From assembly GCF_000621845.1 (NCBI RefSeq), contig NZ_KK211355.1, positions 124,001 to 188,000 on the forward strand: a stretch of 64,000 nucleotides of DNA. The letters are read 5' to 3'. The notes under the pieces were generated by a model. It made no database searches. It saw only the letters and a list, made by a program, of their open reading frames with translations, and was not told where the DNA came from. Below, piece by piece: positions 4,037 through 45,278 of the stretch (within the stretch, counting starts at the first letter, position 1; every line of letters starts with the position of its first letter). The DNA is from Ruminococcus flavefaciens MA2007. GTDB lineage: Bacteria; Bacillota; Clostridia; Oscillospirales; Ruminococcaceae. A program made the position numbers and the translations under genes.

Positions 4037-4758
4037 GGTTTCGCTACGGCACGGATATCGGTCTGAAGCGCGAGGAAAACCAGGACGCGGTCAGATGCGA
4101 ATACTTCGGCCATAATGTGCTCGCCGTCGTGTGCGACGGTATGGGCGGCGAACGAGCTGGAAAGGAAGCCAGCGAGCTCGCAATAGAAGAATTCTTCCAG
4201 CGTTTTTCGGCGGATTATAAGGAGAGCCTCAGCGATGAGGATATCCGCAAGCTCCTTATATCATCTGTATCGGCGGCAAATTCCGTGATATACACACGGG
4301 CGAGGTTCGATTTCAAGAACTTCGGCATGGGTACGACCTGTGTTGCTGCCTTTGTCACCAAGAAAACAGCCTTCATAGCCAATGTCGGCGACAGCAGAGC
4401 CTATCTCATCACCGACACAGGCCTCGTCAGGATAACCACTGATCATAACGTAGCCGCTGTGCTCTTTGAGCAGGGGAAGATAACCGAGGAGGAAATGGAG
4501 GTACACCCTCAGAAGCATATGCTCGTAAGAGCTGTCGGCGTGGATAAAACGGTGCTTACCGATACGTTCATGCTGGACTATGAGGATAAGATAAGTCTGC
4601 TGCTGTGCTCGGACGGCCTTTCGGGATATTGCAGTGATGATGAAATATACGACGTTATACTAAACTCTGATTTTGATGACGCCGCAGATCAACTTATAAA
4701 ATTAGCTCTCACCAAGGGCGGCCGCGACAATGTAACAGTTGCGGTAATTTCTGACTAA
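4033..4758 (+). CDS. prpC: PP2C-type Ser/Thr phosphatase (PrpC/Stp)
   Basis: Mn/Mg-dependent phosphatase that opposes the adjacent PASTA kinase. All PP2C metal-binding motifs are visible in 241 residues: GTDIGLKREENQD near the start, VCDGMGGE, VGDSRAYL, CSDGLSGY and GRDNVTVAVI. The length is normal for bacterial PrpC. It starts with TTG overlapping the rlmN stop by 4 bases, and prkC starts 16 bases after its stop with an AGGAGGAAAGG site. Confidence 0.96.
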   Translation: MRFRYGTDIGLKREENQDAVRCEYFGHNVLAVVCDGMGGERAGKEASELAIEEFFQRFSADYKESLSDEDIRKLLISSVSAANSVIYTRARFDFKNFGMGTTCVAAFVTKKTAFIANVGDSRAYLITDTGLVRITTDHNVAAVLFEQGKITEEEMEVHPQKHMLVRAVGVDKTVLTDTFMLDYEDKISLLLCSDGLSGYCSDDEIYDVILNSDFDDAADQLIKLALTKGGRDNVTVAVISD

Positions 4759-40800: not shown

Positions 40801-41574
40801 ATGAAAAAGCTTTTGGCGTCTGTAATTTCAATAGCTCTGACTATATCGGCTGTGCTGCCGATGATGAGTTTTGCTGCCCCTGATACTGCATTTGTGCTCG
40901 GCGACAACATAGTAGAGGCTTCTTCGGCAAATGCCGACGCTTATGCTGAGCAGGTAGTAAAGCTTGTGAACAGCGAGAGATCAAAGAGAGGTCTCCAGCC
41001 TGTCAAGGCTCTTATATCCATGAACAAAGCGGCTTCTGCCCGCGCAAAGGAAATAGCAGGTAAGTTCGACCATACACGCCCCGACGGCAGACGCGGCTTT
41101 ACCGCTGTTGAAGACGCAGGGCTCAACTGGAGCTGGGTAGGCGAGAATATCGCCGCAGGATATCCTACTCCCGAAGATGTTATGAGCGGCTGGATGAATT
41201 CAAACGGTCACAGAGATAATATCCTTAATTCCAGATGCAAGTACATCGGTGTGGGCTACTATAATGACGGCGGCTGTGCTAACTGGGTACAGCTGTTTAT
41301 GGACTCTCCTATGGAGTACACAGACTTCCCGACTATAAAGGTACAGAGCGGCGACAAGACTAACCTTTCAAAGGGCGATGTGAACGGTGATAATGCAATA
41401 AACGCTATCGACGCTTCTGAGGTCTTGACGGAGTACGCAAGCGTTTCCTCGGGACGAGGCTCACGTTTTTCAGCAGCTCAGAAAACTGCTGCTGATATGA
41501 ACACAAACGGCACAGTAGACGCAGTGGACGCGTCAATAATACTTGGAATATACGCGACTAATGCCACTAAATAA
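40801..41574 (+). CDS. Secreted CAP/SCP-domain protein with C-terminal dockerin
   Basis: The 257-residue protein has a signal peptide (about 1-26, MMSFAAP). A CAP domain follows at about 48-170 with the cavity residues His91 (FDHTRP), Glu115 (VGENIAAG) and His137 (NGHRDNIL). A type I dockerin at about 190-252 has two calcium loops (GDVNGDNAINAIDAS and DMNTNGTVDAVDAS). CAP proteins bind lipids or act as proteases in some cases; the role here is unknown. The dockerin implies display on a cohesin scaffold, an unusual cargo since it is not a glycoside hydrolase. Confidence 0.92.
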   Translation: MKKLLASVISIALTISAVLPMMSFAAPDTAFVLGDNIVEASSANADAYAEQVVKLVNSERSKRGLQPVKALISMNKAASARAKEIAGKFDHTRPDGRRGFTAVEDAGLNWSWVGENIAAGYPTPEDVMSGWMNSNGHRDNILNSRCKYIGVGYYNDGGCANWVQLFMDSPMEYTDFPTIKVQSGDKTNLSKGDVNGDNAINAIDASEVLTEYASVSSGRGSRFSAAQKTAADMNTNGTVDAVDASIILGIYATNATK

Positions 41575-42192: not shown

Positions 42193-42199
42193 ATACAAT

Positions 42200-42231
42200 G
42201 CCCCTGAGCGTTTCCAAATACGCTCAGGGGC
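42200..42231. terminator. Bidirectional terminator between the GNAT and pfl genes
   Basis: GCCCCTGAGCGT, 8-base loop, ACGCTCAGGGGC. It sits between convergent genes. The stem is nearly identical to that after the transketolase genes. Confidence 0.82.
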
Positions 42232-42257
42232 AAAACTTTATATGTTGCAGCTTTTTA

Positions 42258-42497
42258 TCAGAGACTTGAGTGGAATGTTCTTGAAATAACGTCGTCCTGC
42301 TGCTCTTTTGTGAGCTTTACGAAGTTTACTGCGTAGCCCGAAACTCTTACGGTGAGCTGTGGGTACTTCTCAGGGTGAGCCTGAGCGTCAAGGAGAGTTT
42401 CACGGGTGAAAACGTTTACGTTGAGGTGGTGTCCGCCTTTTTCAACGTAGCCGTCAAGCAATTCGATGAGGTTGTCTACCTGTTTCTGATTATCCAT
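42258..42497 (-). CDS. Stand-alone glycyl-radical subunit of pyruvate formate-lyase
   Basis: The 79-residue protein is the C-terminal glycyl-radical domain of PFL as a separate gene: [32 protein letters not shown] and [16 protein letters not shown]. The radical Gly is Gly54 in RVSGYAV. The chosen ATG at 42497 follows an AGGGAGGATAAAT site; an in-frame upstream start lacks one. The large PFL gene upstream lacks exactly this domain, so the two probably form one enzyme. GrcA/YfiD-type spare parts are similar but coexist with full-length PFL; no full-length copy is seen here. Confidence 0.88.
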
Positions 42498-42509
42498 ATT
42501 TATCCTCCC

Positions 42510-42530
42510 TGCAGCGTGACGCTGCACCCT
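42510..42530. repeat. Short palindromic repeat, copy 2 (GCAGCG-TGA-CGCTGC + ACCCT)
   Basis: Identical to 8827-8847. It lies within the 135-base spacer between the 67-residue ORF and the glycyl-radical gene. Confidence 0.7.
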
Positions 42531-42632
42531 ATCCACGTTGCCGCTTGCTTCGCTCGCTCACTTTTATTAAGCTGCTGCCCGTACATCGCTTACGGCAGTT
42601 TGATAGGAAAATGCGATTTATGCGTATGACAA

Positions 42633-42836
42633 TTATAATTCGTCGTCCTCGGGCTCAAGCTCCGTGGGCTGACAGCAGGCGCCCTTTGTGCCGCAGATAT
42701 CCGTGCTTTTCACGGTATCGACTTTCAGCTCTGAGCCGTTTCCGACTATATTTACATGACCGCTTCCCTGCGCCATGAGCTGGTCTATCAGGTCTGCAAG
42801 CTCCTCAGGGGAGCTTTTATTTTCGGGTGCGCACAT
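42633..42836 (-). CDS. 67-residue Cys-bearing protein between the two PFL parts
   Basis: Not recognised. The ATG at 42836 is one base after the PFL stop, with a GAGGCGAA site in the end of pfl, so it is probably translationally coupled. The sequence has an N-terminal helix (SSPEELADLIDQLMAQ), a Gly-rich strand (GSGHVNIVGNGSEL) and a Cys cluster (DICGTKGACC) with an acidic tail. The LIDQLMAQ-GSGHVNIV stretch resembles the linker of the glycyl-radical subunit ([17 protein letters not shown]). It may be a PFL-binding or metal-binding accessory; function is inference. Confidence 0.7.
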   Translation of the reverse strand: MCAPENKSSPEELADLIDQLMAQGSGHVNIVGNGSELKVDTVKSTDICGTKGACCQPTELEPEDDEL

Positions 42837-42837
42837 A

Positions 42838-44940
42838 TTATTCGCCTCTGAGCTTGTCAAGGTCGAGGTCTCCTGCGAATACCTCCATGTCCTTGCCCAG
42901 TGCGTTAGGAACTATTGAGAATGTGTTGGAGATACCGTCCTGTGCGTGTCTGAAAGGCAGTTTAGCTACAGACGAGAGCGAAGCTACAGCGCCGTGAGTG
43001 TCTCTGCCGTGCATCGGGTTAGCTCCCGGAGCCAGCGGAACTCCCTGCTTTCTGCCGTCAGGAGTGTTTCCTGTTTTCTTGCCGTATACAACGTTGGAAG
43101 TAATTGTAAGAATTGACATTGTTGGCACGCCGTCGCGGTAGGTGTGGTGCTTTCTTACGCAGTCCATAAAGCGGCGGACAACTTCAACAGCAAGCTGGTC
43201 AACGCGGTCATCGTTGTTGCCGTATTTCGGGAAGTCTCCCTCAATTTCGTAGTCAACGACAACGTTCTTGGCAACGCTTGTGACATTGCCTGCCTTGTCC
43301 TTTATTTCGATATCCTTGCGGATAGGCTTTACCTTTGCGTACTTGATAGCAGAGAGCGAATCGGCAACGACTGAAAGTCCTGCGATACCTGTTGCGAAAT
43401 AGCGCTTTACATCTCTGTCATGGAGAGCCATTTGCAGTCTCTCATAGCTGTACTTGTCGTGCATATAGTGGATAACGTTGAGGGTGTTGACATAAAGTCC
43501 TGCCAGCCACTCCATCATATCCATGTACTTCTCCCAAACATCGTCGAAGTCGAGATACTCGCTGTCTACAGGTCTGTACTTAGGACCTACCTGAAGTCCG
43601 AGACGCTCGTCCACACCGCCGTTTATAGCGTAGAGCAGGCACTTTGCAAGATTGGCTCTTGCGCCGAAGAACTGCATTTCCTTGCCCACACGCATTGAGG
43701 ATACACAGCAGGCGATAGCGTAGTCATCGCCGTGAACCACTCTCATCATGTCATCGTTCTCGTACTGGATAGACGAGGTCTTGATAGACATCTTAGCGCA
43801 GTATTCCTTGAACTTTCTCGGGAGCTTCGTTGACCAGAGAATAGTCATATTCGGCTCGGGAGCTGTTCCAAGGTTCTCCAGTGTGTGGAGGTATCTGAAA
43901 CTGTTCTTTGTAACGAGGTGATGACCGTCAACGTCAACGCCGCCGATAGACTCTGTTATCCATGTGGGATCGCCGGAGAAGAGCTCGTTGTACTCGGGAG
44001 TACGTGCGAACTTTACGATACGGAGCTTCATGATGAAGTGGTCAATGAGCTCCTGAGCCTGTTCCTCGGTGAGTATGCCCTTATCAAGGTCACGCTGAAT
44101 GAATATATCAAGGAATGTGGAAGTACGTCCTAATGACATAGCCGCGCCGTTCTGCTCCTTGACAGCAGCAAGATAGCCGAAGTAGAGCCACTGAACCGCT
44201 TCCTTAGCGTTTGCGGCAGGCTTTGAGATATCAAAGCCGTATATCTCGCCCAGCTTCTTGAGATCCTGCAATGCGCGGACCTGCTCTGCAAGTTCCTCGC
44301 GGAGACGGATGTTCTTGGAAGTCATTCTTACCAGTGAAGTATCTATCTGGTGCTTCTTGTCCTCGATAAGGAGATCAACACCGTAGAGTGCTACACGTCT
44401 GTAGTCGCCGATGATACGGCCTCTGCCGTAAGCGTCAGGAAGTCCTGTCAGGATAGCCGAATGACGTGCAAGTCTCATTTCGGGAGTGTATGCGTCGAAA
44501 ACGCCCTGATTGTGAGTTTTTCTGTACTTTGTGAATATCTCGACTACAGAGGGATCGACCTCATAGCCATATTCCTTGCAAGCCTGCTGAGCCATTCTGA
44601 TACCGCCGAAGGGCTGTAATGCACGCTTGAAAGGCTTGTCCGTCTGGAGACCTACTATCTGCTCCAGATCCTTTTCAATGTAGCCTGCGCCGTGTGAAGT
44701 TATTGTTGATATGATCTTGGTGTCCATGTCAAGGACTCCGCCTGCTTCGCGCTCCTGTCGGGAGAGATCCATGACCTTGTCCCATAGCTTTTTTGTTGCC
44801 TCGGTAGGAGGTGCGAGGAAGCTTTCGTCGCCCTCATAAGGAGTGTAATTCTTTTTGATGAAGTCTCTGACGTTTACAGAAGTATGACTCCAGCGCCCCT
44901 CTGTAAAGCCGTCCCATTCCTTTTGCCATGTATTGATCAT
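42838..44940 (-). CDS. Pyruvate formate-lyase, catalytic part lacking the glycyl-radical domain
   Basis: Converts pyruvate and CoA to acetyl-CoA and formate. The 700-residue protein has the PFL fold with the active-site pair Cys411-Cys412 ([23 protein letters not shown]), the [10 protein letters not shown] segment near 111 and the [12 protein letters not shown] end. It stops where E. coli PFL (about 760 residues) continues into the linker and the glycyl-radical domain; that part is encoded at 42258-42497. AAGGAG precedes the ATG by 9 bases, and a TTGACA promoter lies upstream. No PFL-activating enzyme is in this window. Confidence 0.95.
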
Positions 44941-44972: not shown

Positions 44973-45001
44973 ATATTACCACATTGTTTAAATTTTGTCA
45001 A
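44973..45001 (-). promoter_or_regulatory. pfl promoter (leftward)
   Basis: On the minus strand: TTGACA, 17-bp spacer, TAATAT, about 33 bases upstream of the start. Confidence 0.8.
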
Positions 45002-45151: not shown

Positions 45152-45278
45152 AACTTGTTTGGCTTATTTGTGCATTAGATAGAACTTAGAACTAAGAGCT
45201 AAGAGCTAAGAACTAAGAGCTAAGAACTAAGAGCTAAGAACTAAGAGCTAAGTAGGGGACGGCGTCCTCGACGTCCCA
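45152..45278. repeat. Heptad-palindrome element with nine heptads, plus a 30-bp unit repeated at 45652
   Basis: ACTTGTTTGGCTTATTTGTG and following bases (45152-45183) recur at 45652-45683. Nine GARCTAA heptads (45189-45251) then run in register into GTAGGGGACG, a 10-base centre and CGTCCC (45252-45278). The rest of the 44941-45292 interval holds only the pfl promoter region. Confidence 0.85.

Follow-up and report, generated by a model that had tools for sequence, protein, structure and literature searches.

Pyruvate formate-lyase encoded by two separate genes, with a small cysteine-bearing gene between them, in Ruminococcus flavefaciens MA2007

Pyruvate formate-lyase (PFL) is the textbook glycyl radical enzyme. 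Its closest described form is PflB of Escherichia coli (1h16), in which one chain carries both the adjacent cysteine pair and the RVSGYAV loop, and a separate activase of the radical S-adenosylmethionine (SAM) type serves it. Free glycyl-radical domains that serve a PFL without its own, such as YfiD/GrcA (6owr) and GrcA3 (NF038360), are also described, and YfiD of E. coli is a spare with a long disordered N-terminus that stands beside a full-length PFL. A 2025 paper still presents PFL as a homodimer built from a single kind of chain; it also states that other glycyl radical enzymes may have accessory subunits which lack annotation, and that no structure of a glycyl radical enzyme together with its activase exists (PMC12590467). 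The locus described here lies in 64,000 nucleotides of Ruminococcus flavefaciens MA2007 (contig NZ_KK211355.1, positions 124,001 to 188,000), called the window below, on the minus strand of which pflB', an open reading frame (ORF) named X and a glycyl-radical gene of 79 amino acids (aa) follow one another in that order. It shares with PflB the cysteine pair, the RVSGYAV loop and a separate radical-SAM activase, and residues 10-758 of 759 can be aligned; it differs in that there are two chains rather than one, together with a third small gene or, in other loci, a cysteine tail. Unlike YfiD, the small protein is the sole radical domain found for PFL, and the complete PFL that GrcA is known to accompany was not found in the genome. 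The relative R. bromii has been called formate-producing in another paper (PMC9403272). The three genes are as follows.

42838..44940, minus strand: pflB', PFL catalytic chain, 700 aa, with Cys411-Cys412 (ORF, Pfam, NCBIfam and 1h16 alignment)
42633..42836, minus strand: ORF X, 67 aa, with a radical-domain-like helix and strand, then the cysteine module STDICGTKGACCQPTE and an acidic end
42258..42497, minus strand: grcA3-type glycyl-radical subunit, 79 aa, with the radical Gly54 in RVSGYAV (PF01228, NF038360)

Two halves of one enzyme

The large chain covers positions 6-647 of 647 in PF02901 but only positions 2-51 of 106 in PF01228, and positions 48-106 of the latter are covered by the 79-aa chain. 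pflB' lies above the cut-off of the PFL equivalog model TIGR01255 (1116.6 vs 994.2 bits), while the 79-aa chain lies above that of the NCBIfam GrcA3 model NF038360 (167.1 vs 158 bits) and below those of the GrcA model TIGR04365 (97.4, cut-off 170) and the GrcA2 model NF008341 (107.7, cut-off 145). In the alignment to 1h16, pflB' corresponds to residues 10-681 and the 79-aa chain to residues 677-758, the sole gap being a 5-residue insert found in E. coli; pflB' extends 12 residues beyond its last aligned residue and ends soon after the LGK segment. It holds the adjacent active-site cysteines Cys411-Cys412 and lacks the linker helix, the beta-10 strand and the glycyl loop, which is found on the separate 79-aa chain. 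The RVSG54YAV segment is invariant across 16 aligned radical-subunit sequences, and the median ratio of nonsynonymous to synonymous substitution (dN/dS) of the radical subunit, calculated over 658 pairs, is 0.048; two of the 59 sequences compared belong to other families. An earlier sequence-only reading of this DNA had proposed a PFL divided into genes of 700 and 79 residues, with Cys411-Cys412 in a large chain ending near the LGK segment, and with the linker helix, RVSGYAV and Gly54 in a small chain running to the C-terminus, the two joined making a whole PFL. ORFs, Pfam and the 1h16 alignment all agree with this proposal, apart from the insert mentioned above, the small chain reaching residue 758 of 759. 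The further gene that it had noticed inside the 340-base gap is the conserved ORF X.

The genome of strain MA2007 (G000; 3.39 Mb, 28 contigs, 98% complete) was searched with PF01228 and PF02901, and two catalytic chains and two radical proteins were recovered, all of them split; a full-length PFL was not found in these searches of the 98%-complete draft. The second split pair, on contig C10, has neither X nor a cysteine tail. The radical domain is separate in both copies, as had been supposed for the first. A PFL-activating enzyme is encoded at C3:317062-317751 (297.3 bits against a cut-off of 231.75), about 150 kb away. The case in which a full-length PFL elsewhere would be the working enzyme, raised beforehand together with a search for the activase, is therefore removed within the limits of this draft. 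A weak fifth PF01228 match on C8, in a 786-aa frame (E 9.6e-4), adjoins an activase-like match below the cut-off and is probably an anaerobic ribonucleotide reductase. Directly after the second split PFL (L008:5804-10837) stands an 888-aa gene that looks by eye like adhE, which suggests a pyruvate-to-ethanol operon.

Among the 99 relatives searched (matches listed down to about E 5e-11), 59 belong to the same genus, and split-type loci were taken from 53 of these. Their 55 loci comprise 54, in 52 genomes, with both split genes, and one (L076) with the small gene alone at a contig edge; X is present in 54 of the 54. The same split and gene order, which were to be looked for in related genomes, thus recur in 52 of the 59 same-genus genomes, always with X. 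As for the other six, G011, G022, G036 and G042 have no PF01228 match, G051 has one at E 1e-3, and G059 has a full-length PFL, the only one among the same-genus relatives, with no split-type match among the matches listed. The PFL of G059 (L098) is distant (62.6% identical) and shares its contig with an activase; here a full-length enzyme may have taken the place of the split one. G028 also holds an 842-aa frame, 22% identical to pflB', that is another glycyl radical enzyme, and a 125-aa fragment is present in G046. Of the 60 genus genomes, that of MA2007 included, 57 have the activase, among them every one that holds a split-type radical gene; the three without it (G011, G042, G051) have no clear PFL match, two lacking any PF01228 match and one having that at E 1e-3.

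Two other explanations of the split have to be weighed against these data. The small protein might be no more than a YfiD-like spare part, with the truncated PFL decaying and the real PFL elsewhere; its NCBI name is 'autonomous glycyl radical cofactor GrcA3', such a part exists in E. coli (6owr), and phage records annotate others. This is very improbable in view of the searches of the genome, which found no full-length PFL, of the genus, where only G059 has one, of the low dN/dS of the radical gene, of the truncated chain passing TIGR01255, and of the activase accompanying every split-type radical gene in the genus. That programmed frameshifting, splicing or read-through of stops yields a single chain is hardly credible. 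Some relatives do have the pieces in a common frame, interrupted by nothing but stop codons, but across 142 loci with both genes (six of them duplicates) the distance from stop to stop is spread over the three frames (53/48/41), 89 of the 142 have X between the two genes, and in the window the radical gene has an ATG of its own and a ribosome-site-like stretch, GGGAGG, at about 42510-42504. The three frames, this ATG, the second copy and the relatives uphold the earlier argument against a simple frameshift. Since a second copy exists in the genome and the arrangement recurs in 52 of 59 same-genus relatives, the split is neither chance nor sequencing error, and the split PFL of the window is confirmed at the level of sequence.

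ORF X and the cysteine tail

The ATG of ORF X lies one base past the stop of pflB'. The X of the window has no family match in Pfam or NCBIfam, chance-like matches only in PDB searches, and no match in the plasmid collection; among relatives, 2 of 30 X match PF01228 weakly (best E 0.0088) and two match the GrcA3 model far below its cut-off. Nine columns are invariant over the 55 genus sequences (own included), and a median dN/dS of 0.237 (267 pairs) indicates purifying selection, weaker than that on the radical subunit. A profile of 30 X from wider taxa matches the radical-subunit profile over its N-terminal 35 columns with a probability of 95.4% (E 1.8e-8), the probability being 9.8% with the genus X alone; on 299 phylum genomes the X profile also matches the same helix-strand stretch of full-length PFLs, mostly in 740-810-aa frames. 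By these profile comparisons the N-terminus of X is homologous to the linker helix and strand of the radical domain, and its C-terminus bears cysteines. In 85 X, a set in which duplicates are counted, C-x(2-8)-C occurs in 84 and an AC-x-PT-like motif in all 85, with three cysteines in 55, two in 19 and four in 11; over 30 X only one cysteine is invariant. When the X of the genus was searched in 394 order genomes, six matched at E 0.01 or better: G000, G028 and G147 clearly, G250 weakly (it holds an X-like ORF), and two that look unrelated.

Many split PFLs without X have a large chain that continues past LGK into a tail, for example FAGDIDVDLDCAGGACFSPTLFDGLD (L173), and a tail such as this one aligns with the cysteine module of X. 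C-x(2-8)-C is found in 20 of 26 tails. The tails differ among themselves, AC..PT occurring in 12 of the 26 in the tree set and others having, for example, CGCC; the forms in L173, L194 and L204 hold cysteines but, in the alignment, no recognisable helix and strand of X. In total 162 loci were examined, of which 142 have both split genes, 12 are without the large gene, 6 are full-length and 2 are without such a radical gene. Among the 142, X without a two-cysteine tail was counted in 89 (including L073, whose large gene has unread bases), a tail without X in 44, both in none and neither in 9. The 89 X loci come from same-genus relatives (54), the named-genome scan (32), a further search (2) and the genome of MA2007 itself (1). 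Six locus pairs, all of the X kind, are the same junction taken from two collections, and their removal leaves 136 distinct split junctions: 83 with X and no tail, 44 with a tail and no X, none with both and 9 with neither. A scripted retally gave 84/43/9, off by one, most likely because a locus without the anchor motif was given an empty tail and then scored as X. The third component, X or tail but never both in these loci, is a more surprising part of the system than the split itself.

Distribution, history and surroundings

The radical subunit was used as a query against 394 order genomes (own included). Among the matches listed, there are 22 in short frames of 81-152 aa at E 3.4e-47 or better, from 21 genomes and nine family codes; lower ranks, from 3.5e-44 on, are mostly full-length frames with some cut frames, and a further short frame of 79 aa is found in G260 (2.5e-34). 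The best 80 loci of the named-genome scan comprise 67 split ones, 11 with a radical gene and no upstream catalytic gene in the locus, and 2 that are full-length. They include Ruminococcus flavefaciens, R. albus KH2T6, R. bicirculans 80/3, Lachnospiraceae and Erysipelotrichaceae, as well as Olsenella, Lancefieldella rimae, Collinsella, Gastranaerophilales and a Spirochaetales bin; many are metagenome bins, and five share a junction with loci of same-genus relatives. The split PFL is, as far as the assemblies show, obligate and widely spread.

A tree of 89 chains (66 split, 23 full), which includes nine full-length rows left out of an earlier drawn tree, requires 3 changes between split and full. 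Forcing all split rows into one clade, as a single origin would require, was rejected (p-AU 0.00013), the reason being that some full-length PFLs are placed between split rows: L146 and L148 stand there in the drawn tree, and the closest neighbours of L147 and L226 are those two or split rows. Both re-fusion and repeated splitting would account for this. Over the 66 split rows X requires at least 12 changes and the tail 9. The exchange of X and tail is thus repeated, and the contrast test considered below is of little power.

Several further observations were made in the course of these searches. The split PFLs of L174 (a Muribaculaceae bin) and L165 (a Melainabacteria bin) are near-identical, with a tree distance of about 0.03, which is probably a binning error. 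In L201 (a Eubacterium sp. bin) an ORF that looks by eye like an activase of the radical-SAM type lies, between positions 4210 and 5001, in the space separating the radical gene from a split large chain without a cysteine tail. A match to the radical subunit at E 1e-5 is present in 1539 records of the phage collection (for example MK268344.1 85501-85731) and spans 80% or more of the subunit in 57, and some Salmonella phages have an annotated glycyl radical cofactor together with anaerobic ribonucleotide reductase genes. L253 (MT838895.1), an unannotated 4.8-kb 'Bacteriophage sp.' record from human stool, encodes a radical subunit 79% identical to that of the window and may be bacterial DNA.

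Around the three genes of the window, two further sites were found as pattern matches. The promoter-like pattern was found at 5 sites against 3.4 expected by chance, and the terminator-like pattern at 5 against 2.4.

44973..45001, minus strand: promoter-like site TTGACA-17-TAATAT with TG, upstream of pflB' (10/12 matches; consensus match only)
42199..42232, minus strand: intrinsic-terminator-like hairpin of 13 pairs, directly 3' of the radical gene (pattern match only)

Upstream of the PFL operon, window positions 45175-45255 hold a tandem run of agaactaagagcta-like units. On the plus strand, window positions 40801-41574 hold a 257-aa ORF whose translation has, by eye, the look of a CAP domain and a dockerin-like C-terminus.

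Proposed mechanism and comparison with known systems

The enzyme of this locus is probably a PFL that exists only in split form, with a radical subunit that is cheap and can be replaced, and with an accessory cysteine module near the radical-domain site. The large chain would hold the barrel and Cys411-Cys412, and the 79-aa chain would bring the linker helix, the beta-10 strand and the radical glycine. The PFL-activating enzyme would generate the glycyl radical on the small chain, which would dock where the C-terminal domain sits in ordinary PFL, so that the radical could be passed to the cysteine pair; oxygen would cleave only the subunit of ~9 kDa, and a fresh copy would replace the damaged one. 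The sequence-only reading had also supposed that activation and the repair of oxygen damage may belong to the enzyme's normal assembly; the sequences support the separate radical domain, and the rest of that view is conjecture. X would be an accessory subunit: its helix and strand, akin to those of the radical domain, would serve for docking, and a flexible pair of cysteines would come to lie close to the radical-domain site when this is empty. Elsewhere the same module would form the C-terminal tail of the large chain. In its favoured role the module would be a redox arm: with the radical subunit gone and Cys411-Cys412 exposed, it would hold these two cysteines in reduced form or quench them. 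The split, the searches that found no full-length PFL, the conservation, the co-occurrence with the activase, the N-terminal homology of X and the exclusivity of X and tail come from sequence comparison, and from them we infer docking, subunit exchange and the role of the cysteines. If X docks with a copy of the helix and strand of the radical domain, it would either compete with the radical subunit for one groove or occupy the opposite half of the dimer. More tentatively, and with the balance tipping slightly against it, X and the tail could be one previously unrecognised PFL component, a cysteine module at the radical-domain site, its trans form docked by the borrowed helix and strand, and the active site alternating between radical-bearing and protecting plug-in subunits.

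Structure prediction was applied to L168 (Ruminococcus sp.), in which the three genes are in one frame; the stretch was folded as a single chain with the two stops read as residues. The read-through model has a mean predicted local distance difference test score (pLDDT) of 77.6, about 55-82 in the radical part, and a predicted template modelling score (pTM) of 0.80. It superposes on E. coli PFL (2pfl) with a template modelling score (TM) of 0.93 and a root-mean-square deviation of 2.3 over 857 alignment columns, which agrees with a predicted docking as in ordinary PFL. The sequence-only reading had advised alignment to E. coli and structure prediction; the chains do align, and the model of this relative superposes as described. 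It has been reported that E. coli PflB G734A with GrcA produces formate at an intermediate level (PMC12338860), and a PFL served solely by a radical on another chain can therefore work. The activated share of E. coli PFL cut at 695 is reported to be as active as the wild type (PMC8683613).

The role of X admits several answers within the reading of a split enzyme. That its cysteines form a redox arm is possible, by analogy with ribonucleotide reductase, where class I and one kind of class II have a flexible C-terminal cysteine pair to which re-reduction of the active site is attributed, and where one subclass has a cysteine-rich part, NrdJb, on a gene of its own (PMC5704485). This analogy is favoured because the layout fits the cis and trans pattern of tail and X; it is not evidence of the same function. 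X may equally be a placeholder or assembly factor that fills the radical-domain groove until the radical subunit takes over, or that contributes the recognition element (E. coli 696-733) on which YfiD binding depends in the E. coli enzyme, with cysteines that are structural or metal-binding. The helix and strand common to X and the radical subunit speak for this possibility, as does the poor binding and activation of YfiD by E. coli PFL cut at 695, for which no binding was detectable by isothermal titration calorimetry (PMC8683613). Against it, the tails of L173, L194 and L204 keep cysteines without the helix and strand, and these forms suggest that the cysteine module is the essential part. 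An iron-sulphur accessory subunit that steers the glycyl-to-thiyl step, like the beta and gamma subunits of benzylsuccinate synthase (BSS) or the small subunit of 4-hydroxyphenylacetate decarboxylase (HPAD), is unlikely: X is indeed small, bears cysteines and lies beside a glycyl radical enzyme, but 74 of 85 X have only two or three cysteines and 11 have four, one alone is invariant over 30 X, and no such family was matched in PDB or Pfam searches. A [4Fe-4S] cluster in X is improbable, unless it is shared, because the conserved cysteines are too few. That X has some role other than redox arm, placeholder or assembly factor is rather doubtful.

Several points weigh against the split enzyme with an accessory cysteine module as set out above. 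The TM of 0.93 is by itself no proof of docking: the radical part makes up only some 10% of the target, and the alignment contained full-length PFLs. X is poorly modelled, with a pLDDT of 55.6 and a pTM of 0.27 alone and low confidence inside the complex; its model alone, with a helix at 10-22 and strands at 27-33 and 36-42, is too uncertain for a claim about its fold. The second copy in MA2007 and six tail-less split PFLs, which end within a few residues of LGK and form one branch, have neither X nor tail, and the cysteine module is therefore not required for a split PFL as such. X is also uncommon elsewhere, being clear in 3 of 394 order genomes and whole in 2 of 299 phylum genomes (MA2007 and G672), and X-type loci are mostly of one genus (54 of 89 before removal of duplicates). 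In 7 well-supported independent contrasts (starred branches, with L154 and L161 labelled X by hand) the tail changes opposite to X in 4-5 and never in the same direction, which gives p 0.06-0.13. G022 and G036 (64% and 88% complete) have an activase and no PF01228 match. E. coli PFL cut at 695 with YfiD was reported to be activated 32-fold less than a longer fragment (PMC8683613). Because the E. coli enzyme cut near the same end activates poorly, natural split PFLs must have solved docking otherwise, and X or the tail is the obvious place to look for a changed docking. Finally, an arrangement with X and the radical subunit on opposite dimer halves would be in keeping with half-site reactivity, but the in vivo results of the G734A study speak against such reactivity in E. 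coli (PMC12338860).

Part of this system is already in databases, the small protein as GrcA3 at NCBI and two likely split-type large chains in the PDB; among the matches listed, the open-licence literature held nothing on split PFL, GrcA3 or X. The PDB chains 38la_A and 38lb_A ('formate acetyltransferase') end where split large chains end, 38la at LGKED like the tail-less chains and 38lb with an extra cysteine-bearing stretch after LGK; these entries were not matched in the radical-subunit searches of the PDB. They are likely to be split-type large chains, and an engineered truncation is also possible. Because these gut and rumen bacteria provide the radical domain as a free protein of 79 residues, its activation and docking, its damage by oxygen and its exchange could be investigated one by one on individual components. 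The X/tail module is a specific candidate for an accessory subunit that annotation has missed, and if the plug-in reading is true, a subunit with the radical and a protecting subunit with cysteines take turns at the PFL active site. The small subunits of BSS and HPAD resemble X as small cysteine-bearing partners of a glycyl radical enzyme; they differ in that, according to the 2025 paper, they bind [4Fe-4S] and the glycine is on their large chains (PMC12590467), whereas X has fewer cysteines and a radical-domain-like N-terminus. The cysteine tail of ribonucleotide reductase and NrdJb resemble tail and X in having a C-terminal cysteine pair that is either fused or on a separate gene, a resemblance of layout and not homology. 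Compared with these systems, the split PFL looks like a variant of a known enzyme, and the X/tail component like one that was previously overlooked.

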